From: Pseudomonas yamanorum
GTDB taxonomy: Bacteria; Pseudomonadota; Gammaproteobacteria; Pseudomonadales; Pseudomonadaceae
Length of the DNA stretch: 64,000 nt
Reading direction: 5' to 3'
NCBI RefSeq assembly: GCF_013386765.1
Contig: NZ_JACARE010000017.1
Span: 297,550-361,549 of the forward strand
Below the pieces are notes generated by a model that was not told the origin of the DNA, ran no database searches, and saw only the letters and a program-made list of their open reading frames with translations. Shown here piece after piece: positions 8,686 to 54,863 of the stretch; position 1 is the first letter of the stretch; every line of letters begins with the position of its first letter. The position numbers and the translations under genes were made by a program.

Positions 8686-8871
8686 CAGGGGCGGGTCGAC
8701 ACGGCTATGACACGTACAGCCTTCCCGCCCCGGGTAAGGTGTTCGTGTCATAGGTCTTGTCAAACCCCGGTCCGTCTGTGCGGACTCCTGGGTCGCATAC
8801 GCCATGGCCTGTTGACCAAGTATGTTGACGTATGCCGGACGAGCGTGGCGCTCGTGGGAGACTACTCCCCT
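8686..8871 (-). promoter_or_regulatory. yybP-ykoY manganese riboswitch (leader of the Mn exporter gene)
   Basis: Read on the minus strand, the leader has the hallmark GGGGAGTAG (8862-8870), then TACGTCAACATA, CATGGCGTA and CAAGACCTATGACACG, in the order of the yybP-ykoY aptamer known from alx and mntP. The aptamer spans about 8742-8871. The rest is the expression platform. CTATGACACG (8744-8753) is fully complementary to 8705-8714, and CCCGCCCC (plus strand, 8724-8731) is complementary to 8688-8695 just before the weak Shine-Dalgarno. The two helices interleave, so they probably form alternatively and control translation. Confidence 0.88.
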
Positions 8872-8933
8872 AGGACGGAGCGGATTCTGCCTAGGCAAAA
8901 TCCATTCGGCAAGCCTTCTTTCGGAAAAAGATT

Positions 8934-30411: not shown

Positions 30412-30767
30412 GAGAGTCGATTGGACAGTCGCTGCCTTCTATGAAAATTAGAGGGGGGAGGAAAGTCCGGGCTCCATAGGGCGAAGTGCCAGGTAATGCC
30501 TGGGAGGCGTGAGCCTACGGAAAGTGCCACAGAAAATAACCGCCTAAGTACTTCGGTACCGGTAAGGGTGAAAAGGTGCGGTAAGAGCGCACCGCACGAC
30601 TGGCAACAGTTCGTGGCTAGGTAAACCCCACTTGGAGCAAGACCAAATAGGGTCCCAAGGCGTGGCCCGCGCTGGGACCGGGTAGGTTGCTAAAGATGTC
30701 CAGTGATGGCCATCGTAGACGAATGACTGTTCAAGACAGAACCCGGCTTACAGATCGACTCTCCACC
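30412..30767 (+). ncRNA. rnpB: RNase P RNA, bacterial class A
   Basis: This is the catalytic RNA of RNase P, which trims the 5' ends of tRNA precursors. It opens AGAGTCGATTGGACAG and closes with the complementary ATCGACTCT (P1). It has the conserved GAGGAAAGTCCGGGCTC block, CAGGTAATGCCTGGG, the GGTAAGGGTGAAAAGGTGCGGTAAGAGCGCACC region, AGGTAAACCCCAC, and the universal ACAGAACCCGGCTTA near the 3' end. A T-run follows. It lies between rsmI and mraZ, as in other Pseudomonas. Confidence 0.97.
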
Positions 30768-46633: not shown

Positions 46634-46698
46634 AGATTTACCGCAACACCGTTTCAAGCAGTAGGCGAAAAAACTAGAGAAATGAAAGGAGAGGGAAA

Positions 46699-47895
46699 AT
46701 GTTCGAACTCGTAGACAACATCCCCGCAAGCCCGGTCATCAAAGTGATCGGCGTCGGCGGTGGCGGCGGCAACGCTGTCAACCACATGGTCAAAAGCAAC
46801 ATTGAAGGCGTTGAATTCATCTGCGCCAACACTGACGCCCAGGCCCTCAAAAGCATCGGTGCACGCACCATCCTGCAATTGGGCACAGCCGTGACCAAGG
46901 GCCTGGGTGCCGGCGCGAATCCGGAAGTCGGCCGTCAAGCCGCCCTGGAAGACCGCGAGCGCATTGCTGAAGTGCTGCAAGGCACCAACATGGTGTTCAT
47001 CACCACAGGCATGGGCGGTGGTACCGGTACCGGTGCTGCGCCGATCATTGCCGAAGTGGCCAAGGAAATGGGGATCCTGACGGTTGCCGTCGTGACCCGT
47101 CCGTTCCCGTTCGAAGGTCGCAAACGCATGCAGATCGCCGATGAAGGCATCCGTCTGCTGTCCGAAAGCGTCGACTCGTTGATCACCATTCCCAACGAGA
47201 AGCTGCTGACCATCCTCGGCAAGGACGCAAGCCTCTTGTCGGCTTTCGCCAAGGCTGACGATGTACTGGCCGGTGCCGTTCGCGGTATCTCCGACATCAT
47301 CAAGCGTCCGGGCATGATCAACGTCGACTTTGCCGACGTACGTACCGTGATGAGCGAAATGGGCATGGCGATGATGGGCACTGGCTGCGCCAGCGGTCCG
47401 AACCGTGCACGTGAAGCCACTGAAGCGGCCATCCGCAACCCGTTGCTCGAAGACGTGAACCTGCAAGGCGCACGCGGCATCCTGGTGAACATCACCGCCG
47501 GTCCTGACCTGTCCCTGGGTGAGTACTCCGACGTGGGTAGCATCATCGAAGCCTTCGCTTCCGAGCACGCCATGGTCAAGGTCGGTACTGTTATCGATCC
47601 GGACATGCGCGACGAACTGCACGTGACCGTTGTTGCGACCGGCCTGGGTGCAAAAATCGAGAAGCCTGTGAAGGTCATCGACAATACCGTCCATACCAGC
47701 CACGCCAGCCAGCAAGCTGCCGCTCCAGCGCCTGCGCGCCAGGAACTGCCGTCTGTGAACTATCGTGACCTGGATCGTCCGACCGTGATGCGCAACCAGG
47801 CTCAGGCCGGTGCTGCTGCGTCCCGTAGCCCGAATCCGCAAGATGACCTGGACTACCTGGACATCCCGGCTTTCCTGCGTCGTCAGGCCGATTAA
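46699..47895 (+). CDS. ftsZ: Cell division protein FtsZ
   Basis: FtsZ is the tubulin-like GTPase forming the Z ring. The 398-aa protein has IKVIGVGGGGGNAVNHM (14-30), the tubulin signature GGGTGTGAAP (106-115), the T7 loop NVDFADVRTVM (about 207-217), a disordered linker from about 320, and the conserved C-terminal peptide DDLDYLDIPAFLRRQ that binds FtsA and ZipA. AAAGGAGAGG precedes the ATG. A 65-bp gap separates it from ftsA. Confidence 0.98.
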   Translation: MFELVDNIPASPVIKVIGVGGGGGNAVNHMVKSNIEGVEFICANTDAQALKSIGARTILQLGTAVTKGLGAGANPEVGRQAALEDRERIAEVLQGTNMVFITTGMGGGTGTGAAPIIAEVAKEMGILTVAVVTRPFPFEGRKRMQIADEGIRLLSESVDSLITIPNEKLLTILGKDASLLSAFAKADDVLAGAVRGISDIIKRPGMINVDFADVRTVMSEMGMAMMGTGCASGPNRAREATEAAIRNPLLEDVNLQGARGILVNITAGPDLSLGEYSDVGSIIEAFASEHAMVKVGTVIDPDMRDELHVTVVATGLGAKIEKPVKVIDNTVHTSHASQQAAAPAPARQELPSVNYRDLDRPTVMRNQAQAGAAASRSPNPQDDLDYLDIPAFLRRQAD

Positions 47896-52106: not shown

Positions 52107-53429
52107 TTAAAAAACGTCAATCGGGTAGTCGACGATCACCCGGTATTCATCCACGTCCCGATCCACGGCCGCGTAGCCATTACCGCCGCGATTGGTCGCC
52201 CATTGCAGGCGCACGGCCAAATCCTTGGCCTTGCCACCTTGCACCACGTACTTGAGGTCGATGTCGCGCTCCCAGTGCTTGGCGTTCTTGCCGTCGGCGC
52301 TGTACCAGGAGGAATAGCCGCGGCTGTCCGGGTCGACCGTGGTCAGGTCGGTCTTGCCGCTGATGTACGACACGGCCGAGGTCAGGCCCGGCAGGCCCAG
52401 CCCGACAAAGTCGTAGGCGTACTTGAGCTTCCACGAGCGTTCGTTGGGGCCGTTGAAGTCGGAGTATTGCTGGGAGTTATCCAGGTAGATGCTATCGCCC
52501 TGGCTGATGTAGTCGAACGGGGTGTTGCCGTTGACCCGCTGGTAAGCGGCGGTGACGCTGTGATGGCCCACGCCCACGGTGAAATGCAGGCTGTAGGTGT
52601 TGTTGTCGATGTTGCCCAGCAGGGCCTTGCCGGTTTCCTGGGTGTGATAGTAGTGCAGGCCCGGGTTGAGGCTGACCAGTTCGTTCAACTGCCAGGTGTA
52701 GTCCAGGTCGTAGTAGTACTGGTTCCAGATGTCCTTGAGTTCGGACGCGTACAGGTTGCTGGTCAGCCCCGGCACGCCGCTGAAGGACACGCCGGCCCAG
52801 TCCAGGTGCCGGCTGTCTTCGCCATTGGGCAATGCGCCGTAGCTGGTGCCGATGCGCCGGTGGCCGCTCTGGTTGTAGAGCTTGGTGAAGCTGGCCTGGC
52901 CGCCTTCGAACATCCAGCCATCCAGGCTGTGGTTGGTCAGGCTCACGCCGCGGAAGGTCTGGGGCAGCATGCGGGTCATGCCGCCGGCGATCACCGGGTT
53001 ATTGAGGAACAGGTCGCCGGCTTTCAGCTCGGTGTCGAAGGCGCGCATTTTCAAGGTGGCGCCGGCGGTGGAGAACGAGGCGGGGGCTTTGCCGTTGCCG
53101 GAGCCCACCGGCAGGATGCTGGAACCGTCGGTGCCGCCGCCGCCGTCGAGCTTGAGGCCGAGCATGGCGTTGGCGTCCAGGCCGAATCCGACGGTACCCG
53201 GGGTGTAGCCGGATTCGAAGATCCCGATGATGCCCTGGCCCCATTCCTTGCTGTCATCGGTGTGAATGTCGCGACGGTCGCGGTTCATGTAGTAGTTGCG
53301 GGTGTTGATCTTGAAGCTTGCACCTTCGACGAAACCGTCGGTGGCCGGGGTGTCTGCCGCGTGGGCAAGGGGAACGATCGTTGCAGCAATCGCGAGGAAT
53401 AACGGGGTGAACGTCAGCGAGGTTTTCAC
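52107..53429 (-). CDS. OprD family outer-membrane porin
   Basis: This 440-aa porin has a signal peptide (residues 1-24, ending PLAHA) and the OprD/Occ pattern: [53 protein letters not shown], and a C-terminal [10 protein letters not shown] strand. OprD-type channels take up basic amino acids or aromatic and other carboxylates; the exact substrate is not readable. The start is GTG with AAAGGAG 8 nt upstream. It runs leftwards behind a leader region holding a terminator-like hairpin. Confidence 0.92.
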
Positions 53430-53494
53430 CGGTGGAGCTCCTTTGGGTCAATCGAAACCGGCCAGTGTTGTTGGGGTTCCTGGCCTTTTTTCAG

Positions 53495-53642
53495 CGCAAA
53501 AAAAAGCCGCTGAACTCAGCGGCTTTAAGACGGATTCCCAGTGTAGAGCCCTGGAAATAAGTCGAGGGAAATCGGGGGAGAGCGGGTCGGTCTTAACCGC
53601 TGCGCTCATCGATGCGACAAATTAGCGCAGGTGAGCGGTGCG
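53495..53642 (-). ncRNA. Candidate small RNA upstream of oprD (about 148 nt)
   Basis: On the minus strand, TTGGGC (53672-53677) and TACACT (53649-53654), 17 bp apart, form a plausible promoter. The transcript would pass a GCGCT/AGCGC stem and end at the strong terminator at 53498-53527. No open frame or ribosome binding site is seen in it. The oprD gene begins 66 nt beyond with its own site. I cannot name an RNA family; a leader attenuator for oprD is the alternative. Confidence 0.5.
53498..53527 (-). terminator. Minus-strand terminator with no minus-strand gene upstream
   Basis: On the minus strand, AAAGCCGCTGA pairs perfectly with TCAGCGGCTTT around GT and is followed by eight T in a row. 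The plus strand lacks a T-run on its side. The next gene to the right is on the plus strand, so this terminator must end a non-coding transcript or attenuate oprD. Confidence 0.85.
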
Positions 53643-53778
53643 ATACAGAGTGTAACAAGATAATGACTGTTGCCCAAATCGCAACAGTCTGGGCTCGCGG
53701 GTGTGGCGCGTCCTGACAAGCCCACGCAAGAATGTTAGCGTGCTTGCCATTCCCACGTAGTCGATGAGCCCGCCTTCC

Positions 53779-54753
53779 ATGAAAAAGACTGTCCTCGCCT
53801 TCAGCCGCGTCACCCCGGAAATGATCGAACGCCTGCAACAGGATTTCGATGTGATCGCCCCCAACCCGAAGCTTGGGGACATCAACGCCCAGTTCAACGA
53901 AGCTTTGCCCCATGCCCACGGCCTGATCGGCGTTGGCCGCAAACTGGGCCGTGCGCAACTGGAAGGCGCGAGCAAGCTGGAAGTGGTCTCCAGTGTGTCG
54001 GTGGGCTACGACAACTACGACCTGGCGTACTTCAATGAACGCGGGATCATGCTCACCAACACCCCCGACGTGCTCACCGAAAGCACCGCCGACCTGGCCT
54101 TCGCCCTGCTGATGAGCAGCGCCCGCCGCGTTGCCGAGCTGGACGCCTGGACCAAGGCCGGCCAGTGGAAAGCCAGTGTCGGCGCGCCGTTGTTTGGCTG
54201 CGACGTACACGGCAAGACCCTGGGCATTGTCGGCATGGGCAACATCGGCGCGGCCGTCGCCCGCCGTGGTCGCCTGGGTTTCAATATGCCGATTCTCTAC
54301 AGCGGCAACAGCCGCAAGACCGAGCTGGAACAGGAGCTGGGCGCGCAGTTCCGCAGCCTCGACCAGTTGCTGGCCGAAGCCGACTTCGTCTGCCTGGTGG
54401 TGCCGTTGAGCGAGAAAACCCGGCACCTGATCAGTCATCGTGAACTGGGCCTGATGAAATCCAGTGCGATCCTGGTGAACATTTCCCGTGGCCCGGTGGT
54501 GGATGAGCCGGCGCTGATCGAAGCCTTGCAGAACCAGACCATCCGTGGCGCCGGCCTGGATGTGTACGAGCAGGAGCCGTTGTCCGAGTCGCCCCTTTTC
54601 CAGTTGAGCAACGCCGTGACCCTGCCGCACATCGGCTCGGCCACGAATGAAACCCGCGAAGCCATGGCCAATCGCGCCCTGGAAAACCTGCGCAGTGCCT
54701 TGTTGGGCCAGCGTCCGCAGGATCTGGTGAACCCGCAGGTGTGGAAGGGCTGA
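53779..54753 (+). CDS. 2-ketogluconate/glyoxylate/hydroxypyruvate reductase (GhrB/TkrA-like)
   Basis: This 324-aa NAD(P)H-dependent D-2-hydroxyacid dehydrogenase has VSVGYDNYDLAYFNERGIMLTNTPDVLTESTAD (about 74-106), the Rossmann motif LGIVGMGNIGAAVARRG (about 149-165), the catalytic Arg in NISRGPVVDE (near 236), Glu in DVYEQEP and His in LPHIGSATNETR (near 284). It resembles GhrB/TkrA enzymes reducing 2-ketogluconate or glyoxylate. ATG 53779 gives the usual N-terminus MKKTVLAFSR; an ATG five codons upstream is possible. Confidence 0.88.
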   Translation: MKKTVLAFSRVTPEMIERLQQDFDVIAPNPKLGDINAQFNEALPHAHGLIGVGRKLGRAQLEGASKLEVVSSVSVGYDNYDLAYFNERGIMLTNTPDVLTESTADLAFALLMSSARRVAELDAWTKAGQWKASVGAPLFGCDVHGKTLGIVGMGNIGAAVARRGRLGFNMPILYSGNSRKTELEQELGAQFRSLDQLLAEADFVCLVVPLSEKTRHLISHRELGLMKSSAILVNISRGPVVDEPALIEALQNQTIRGAGLDVYEQEPLSESPLFQLSNAVTLPHIGSATNETREAMANRALENLRSALLGQRPQDLVNPQVWKG

Positions 54754-54765
54754 TCACTGCTTTTT

Positions 54766-54863
54766 GTAGGAGCGAGCTTGCTCGCGAAGAGCGTCAACGA
54801 TAACGCGGGCGGCCTGGATCAACGCAGTGCCCTCAGGTTTTTCGCGAGCAAGCTCGCTCCTAC
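54766..54863. repeat. REPIN (GTAGGAGCGAGCTTGCTCGCGAA type)
   Basis: Inverted REP copies of a different family from those in the left half begin GTAGGAGCGAGC and are separated by a 52-bp non-palindromic linker. The element lies between two plus-strand genes, the GhrB-like reductase and cheV, probably at the 3' end of the first. Confidence 0.9.

Follow-up and report, generated by a model that had tools for sequence, protein, structure and literature searches.

Described sRNAs against which the locus reported here can be set include Sr0161 of Pseudomonas aeruginosa, reportedly the work of Zhang et al. in 2017, and CpxQ, which has a C-rich 5′ end. Published passages place Sr0161 between PA0160 and opdC (PMC8395346), give its length as 247 nt (PMC9308961), and state that oprD is repressed by Sr0161 with Hfq (PMC7264166); the pairing partners reported in these passages are the oprD and exsA leaders, again with Hfq (PMC8395346, PMC9308961, PMC7264166). 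ErsA, also of P. aeruginosa, is likewise described in a passage as an sRNA acting with Hfq to repress oprD (PMC7264166), but unlike the RNA analyzed here it lies from position 6183580 of PAO1 onwards and not beside opdC. CpxQ is described, again in a passage, as an sRNA derived from the 3′UTR of cpxP (PMC9438474).

The window, by which we mean the whole 64,000-nucleotide stretch of Pseudomonas yamanorum DNA that was analyzed, contains on its minus strand at 53689-53498 a unit made up of a palindrome, a TTGGGC-N17-TACACT promoter, a predicted RNA, and an intrinsic terminator, followed by 68 bp up to the GTG start of a porin gene. The promoter is present as given in the preliminary description, with its -35 element at 53677-53672, its -10 element at 53654-53649, and a 17-bp spacer. 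Across 60 loci that have this type of promoter, TTGGGC is identical in 53 and TACACT in all 60, although the selection of these loci required a loosened -10 and a preceding TTATCTTG, which biases those columns. Since a generic consensus scan of 52500-54500 returned no promoter-like site, this one included, the case for the promoter is a comparative one. The palindrome, GACTGTTGC-N7-GCAACAGTC (53665-53689, minus strand), is perfect over 25 bp, operator-like, overlaps the -35 element, and occurs with both promoter types found among relatives.

The predicted sRNA is about 144 nt long (53641-53498, minus strand), close to the 148 nt first proposed; its start was placed from the -10 element and a GCACC common to the other promoter type, and it contains the GCGCT/AGCGC stem noted earlier. 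A conserved C-rich segment, TTTCCCTCGAC (53561-53571, minus strand), emerged from the comparison of loci, and within it TTTCCCTC is unpaired in the predicted folds and is presumed to be the seed. A hairpin GAC...GTC follows (53529-53563, minus strand), whose pairing is kept while its sequence varies in relatives, as seen in folds and a count of covariation. The terminator (53498-53526, minus strand), recognized in the sequence and by a terminator scan, reads AAAGCCGCTG-AGTT-CAGCGGCTTT and then T; its stem spans 53526-53503 and its eight T lie at 53505-53498, so that the terminator and T tract stand as first described while the stem has 10 pairs and a 4-nt loop instead of 11 bp. We refer to 53571-53498, comprising the unpaired UUUCCCUC, the covarying hairpin, and the terminator, as the 3′ module. 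The fold of 53495-53677 gave z = -3.1, with 1 of 200 shuffles equally stable, and a pattern for the 3′ module, derived from the window and related loci, had a single match in the window and none in 100 shuffles.

The downstream gene on the same strand (52107-53429) has OpdC as its closest solved structure (3sy9, E 3.9e-192). This bears out the OprD family of the preliminary description, but the porin is closest to OpdC and not to OprD itself, and the distance from the terminator to its start at 53429 is 68 bp where 66 bp had been counted. The right-hand neighbor, which runs from 53764 or 53779 to 54753, is on the plus strand, in keeping with the earlier remark that no minus-strand gene lies near on that side. 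Past the dehydrogenase gene, 54766-54863 holds a long inverted repeat GTAGGAGCGAGCTTGCTCGCGAA...TTCGCGAGCAAGCTCGCTCCTAC that looks REP-like by eye. At the Rfam gathering cut-off nothing was found at the 53495-53677 locus, at six relatives' loci, or at five further loci that include a second unit in the same genome, and a relaxed scan of 53400-53780 returned only matches below gathering. Elsewhere in the window, a manganese riboswitch (yybP-ykoY, 8762-8883, minus strand) and RNase P RNA (30413-30766, plus strand) were above gathering.

Like Sr0161, the window RNA lies beside opdC, ending 68 bp upstream on the same strand. A genome that we called P. aeruginosa-type from 98% OpdC (3sy9) and 92% OprD identity to PDB chains (G511) is matched upstream of opdC by the covariance model R1 at 254425-254494 (E 1.2e-4), with a T tract ending about 130 bp before opdC. 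The transcript predicted there from a TATAAT promoter is 251-254 nt, against the 247 nt printed for Sr0161. Upstream of this unit is a gene for a small exported AEES protein with its own terminator. Sr0161 and the window RNA are thus alike in their place beside opdC, in the succession of C-rich segment, hairpin, and terminator, and in that the same covariance model matches G511; they are unlike in length (about 252 nt for the G511 unit versus about 144 nt) and in hairpin sequence. Pairwise scores of the G511 unit were weak against the window RNA (z 1.7), z 2.0 against the copy in G036, and z 4.0 against the second P. yamanorum unit, and the hairpin region of G511's genus scored z 4.0 to 5.0 against that second unit versus 1.4 to 2.3 against the window RNA. 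The Sr0161-like G511 unit therefore resembles the second unit more than it does the window RNA. Ten other loci of G511's genus carry this unit, the palindrome being clear in most of them, and have no opdC within 1.5 kb. As far as sequence comparison reaches, the window RNA is likely related to Sr0161 at the level of a family.

Within the genus, DNA corresponding to 53763-53380 (minus strand) was matched in 76 of 199 genomes, many of the matches being short and the shorter ones centering on 53571-53497. Matches of more than 200 nt at 85-100% identity were found in 29 places, the window's own included, and in 26 of these the similarity starts at or near the palindrome and not in the neighboring gene. 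Reading 51 loci, two of which are the window's own place, showed the module (TTTCCCTCGAC or a close form, hairpin, terminator) to be common to 47; it was unmatched in L003, L031, L048, and L050. With model R1 and a cut-off of E <= 0.01, the module was detected in 252 of 398 genus genomes, of which 227 are below 1e-4 by row count; a number of the weak matches are doubtful, and 146 genomes gave none. At E <= 0.001, it was present in 34 of 198 genomes of the family, in 3 of 19 genera. A search of 28 of the genomes again gave six weak loci without any neighbor genes of the opdC locus (L223-L225, L227-L229), which we set aside for that reason as false or other copies, while the weak L226 has these genes. 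A pattern scan of named genomes returned at least 118 stretches, and the 80 matches listed were from Pseudomonas (78), Paucimonas (1), and a gamma proteobacterium (1). The metagenome-assembled genome labelled Paucimonas (L084) carries the module together with an opdC that groups inside Pseudomonas, and its label is probably wrong.

Among the matches listed from the open-licence literature, none was recognizably on this RNA outside P. aeruginosa, although a P. putida catalogue (Bojanovic 2017) may include it. The sRNA of one P. putida paper has its locus elsewhere (PP_5401/PP_5402), and a P. plecoglossicida sRNA paper contained none of the names sought.

Each of the 56 distinct sequences of alignment A1 folds into a hairpin at this position, with z below -1 throughout and a mean of -3.7. 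In A1, which is structure-blind, 61 cells were changed on both sides of a pair, compared with an average of 23 for shuffles (none of 500 reached 61) and with 11 to 39 when the hairpin was slid along as a control; the structure was taken from individual folds and then counted, which favors the hairpin somewhat. The number of pairs with any both-sided change (8) was reached by 61 of 500 shuffles and is not significant. RNAalifold on the MAFFT alignment recovered the terminator and no hairpin, because the hairpin arms are shifted by one column between groups. The terminator stem also varies in pairs between groups, from AAGCCGCTG/CAGCGGCTT to AGGCCGCTG/CAGCGGCCT. Since A1 was gathered partly by a pattern that fixes TTCCCTCGAC, the invariance of that stretch in A1 is biased; elsewhere the C-rich stretch takes the form UUUUCCCUUGG in one group and CUUCCCGACG in another genus, and these variant groups keep an unpaired pyrimidine stretch with UCCC ahead of the hairpin. 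Conservation among relatives, the check that the preliminary description had proposed for hairpin and promoter, holds for the palindrome and the terminator as well, and supports its proposal of an sRNA with its own promoter and terminator.

The module occurs in two genomic contexts. The gene order in most of the relatives read is RND pump, response regulator and kinase (both of heavy-metal families), a small exported-protein gene, the module, and then opdC or a diguanylate cyclase. The small protein has about 74 aa with the form M-S-N-x-M-G-I-A-S...A-E-E-S...K-D-S and belongs to no Pfam family at E <= 0.001. The module begins 16-24 nt past the stop of this gene in 90 of 91 loci and 28 nt past it in the remaining one, and its terminator also closes the small-gene unit. 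Dropping duplicates and short ones from 219 pattern matches left 157 different loci whose upstream sequence was long enough. A first sorting gave 60 of the window's type, 91 with the small gene, and 6 unassigned, and reading the six brought the numbers to 62, 94, and one locus (L051) that is neither.

Most of the relatives read therefore resemble CpxQ in layout: a short RNA sits downstream of the stop codon of a gene for a small exported protein, the setting is a two-component system of a stress type, and the intrinsic terminator is common to RNA and mRNA. They differ from it in that the two-component genes are of the heavy-metal type and the small protein is another one, and the CpxQ comparison made here is one of layout, not of sequence. 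In the window the small gene has been lost, and there is no mRNA stop ahead of the RNA. In a tree of 124 porins, a branch with support 98 separates the window's type, together with two species that lack the sRNA body, from the rest, the labels of 44 of the 137 rows before thinning having been set by hand. In addition, AAAGACAGC, a sequence shared with the final codons of the small gene, lies within 40 nt before the module in 24 of 60 window-type loci (e.g., L008). This comparison supports a deletion of the coding part in the window's clade, after which the promoter would make the sRNA directly, and the window-type RNA seems to have begun as an mRNA tail whose protein-coding part was lost later. 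L051 has the other promoter type, a palindrome of which the right half alone is clear, and no small gene, and is possibly a second, independent loss.

A deletion of the pump and sensor genes in the window's clade was considered and rejected: the histidine kinase lies at C18:362918-364372, on the other strand and 1.4 kb past the right end of the window. Its position and strand suggest that about 13 kb are inverted relative to the relatives. The apparent inversion runs from 53690 to beyond 64000 (C18 to about 364400), takes in a hydroxyacid dehydrogenase, a chemotaxis gene, the RND pump, and the kinase, and has a breakpoint just upstream of the palindrome.

The palindrome is present in both contexts, being found upstream of the small gene as well, where by eye it stands about 40 bp from the -10-like element versus about 11 bp in the window's type. 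At up to 3 mismatches it was no commoner than a control in six genomes, and a limit of 1 mismatch was hence used. With this limit the P. yamanorum genome (G000) has only two matches, the window locus and C41:230652-230675; among the matches listed, which cover these genomes except G467, G005 also had 2, G036 and G017 had 1 each, and G199 had none. C41:230652-230675 sits between a divergent DUF1302-DUF1329-LuxR (MalT-like) operon and a second, weak R1 match of this genome (C41:230813-230884, E 0.008). The whole (C41:230652-230884, L292) is the second sRNA-like unit mentioned above, with palindrome, hairpin GACGTTGATTTATTGCTCCTTGATCAAACGTC, and terminator, divergent from that operon. In G005 and G036, the palindrome precedes a gene whose start resembles that of the P. 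yamanorum DUF1302 gene. The palindrome is presumably the operator of the sRNA promoter, and from this arrangement we infer that the LuxR (MalT-like) protein may bind it.

Possible targets were sought through the C-rich segment. TCGAGGGAAA occurs at 14 places in the P. yamanorum genome, and reading the 13 non-self places and four more gave no convincing target. GAGGGAA-N0-25-ATG occurs at 40 + 46 places versus 14 + 18 for the reversed control, an excess expected of any Shine-Dalgarno-like word. In a duplex ranking of 60 mechanically chosen leaders, ftsZ came second (-15.1, GGAGAGGGAAAATG), and GAGGGAA is kept in 21 of the 24 ftsZ leaders read (of 25). It is, however, also kept in G039, a genome without an sRNA match, whereas G286 has a match and a broken GAGGGAA; ftsZ is therefore only a candidate. 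The ftsZ leader GGAGAGGGAAAATG at 46688-46701 of the window is itself strongly conserved and complementary to the C-rich segment of the RNA. Pairing of this segment with the opdC leader was not favored (rank 51 of 60). In G511, its pairing with the oprD leader was unsupported (rank 28 of 29 porin leaders), while three oprD-like leaders of the P. yamanorum genome ranked 6, 10, and 16 of 29 for the window's segment; full-length duplex energies were uninformative in this test.

Taken together, the comparative signs point to a real, conserved sRNA gene of the Sr0161 kind that would be stand-alone in the window's clade and a 3′UTR module in most of the relatives read. The best explanation, which we hold with good though not full confidence, is a gene for a trans-acting and probably Hfq-type sRNA of this kind, with a palindrome-overlapped promoter, an origin in a 3′UTR whose coding part was lost, and leaky read-through into opdC. 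The RNA at 53641-53498 (minus strand) would be transcribed from the promoter overlapped by the 25-bp palindrome, its presumed operator, and would end at the intrinsic terminator. Its unpaired UUUCCCU would presumably anneal to Shine-Dalgarno regions resembling AGGGAAA and thereby block translation. The module of most relatives would be the 3′ end of the small exported-protein mRNA, freed by cleavage, presumably by RNase E, as with CpxQ, whereas the comparison suggests that in the window's clade the promoter directly yields the sRNA, the coding part having been deleted.

The locus might instead be just the 5′ leader of opdC with a transcription attenuator, the promoter being that of the porin and the terminator setting the amount of porin mRNA, as the preliminary description had also considered. 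The sister species G031 (L031, L346) and G135 (L345) speak for a connection with the porin, in that the sRNA body has been lost from both, and what remains is a stack of promoter, terminator, and opdC start, with about 25 nt from the T tract to the GTG. This stacking means that opdC hardly has another promoter there, and a consensus scan found none in the 68 bp past the window's terminator, although the same scan missed TTGGGC-N17-TACACT. An attenuator would always stand ahead of a porin gene, but nine loci have the module without opdC (L030, L035, L036, L039, L040, L042, L045, L049, L051), among which L030 (by eye) and L035 retain apparent C-terminal remnants or last codons of opdC. The RNA is thus not just a porin attenuator and is independent of the porin. 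Nor would an attenuator require the covarying hairpin and the conserved C-rich segment that are seen here, and no alternative antiterminator pairing stood out in an unsystematic look at the folds. We therefore regard a purely attenuating role as unlikely. What survives of the attenuator idea is read-through into opdC in the window's clade: with the body deleted and the elements stacked, it is the likely source of porin mRNA in G031 and G135, and from the architecture of these two species a leaky terminator probably supplies opdC mRNA in the clade. Both outputs, sRNA and opdC mRNA, likely come from one promoter there.

Less likely again is that the locus, in the window's clade, regulates nothing and is a mere terminator to which a 3′UTR remnant of the former small-gene unit is still attached. 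The terminator does close the small-gene unit in relatives, and the body was lost in G031 and G135, from which it follows that the body is dispensable in those two species. Against this, in a clade without the small gene, 28 places other than the window's own retain the leader, counted from the palindrome, with 85-96% identity, and the hairpin is kept across groups with changes in both arms. A sponge or a very short encoded peptide is highly improbable, no shared reading frame having been seen, with the small gene gone in the clade and the frames that enter the leader differing between loci.

An sRNA gene of the Sr0161 kind would matter beyond P. yamanorum, since published passages attribute to Sr0161, in P. 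aeruginosa, the regulation of OprD, the porin for carbapenems, and of the activator of type III secretion. Those passages give neither the origin, the controller, nor the distribution of Sr0161, and placing the RNA in a family whose members, in most of the relatives read, form the 3′ end of an mRNA for a small exported protein downstream of pump and sensor genes suggests what it may respond to. The comparison yields a candidate operator and regulator as well as a traceable case of an mRNA turning into an sRNA gene. The body loss in G031 and G135 is a natural deletion experiment. More tentatively, and as a possibility we would not yet favor, an sRNA family of the Pseudomonas group may have outlived its own mRNA, having started out at the 3′ end of the transcript for a small envelope protein and become stand-alone at least once and perhaps twice (the window's clade and L051). 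As it shares the 25-bp operator with the second unit and the DUF1302-DUF1329-LuxR (MalT-like) operon, this RNA could belong to an envelope regulon not yet described, in which it would act as the RNA arm and silence mRNAs whose ribosome sites read AGGGAAA, ftsZ being one candidate.
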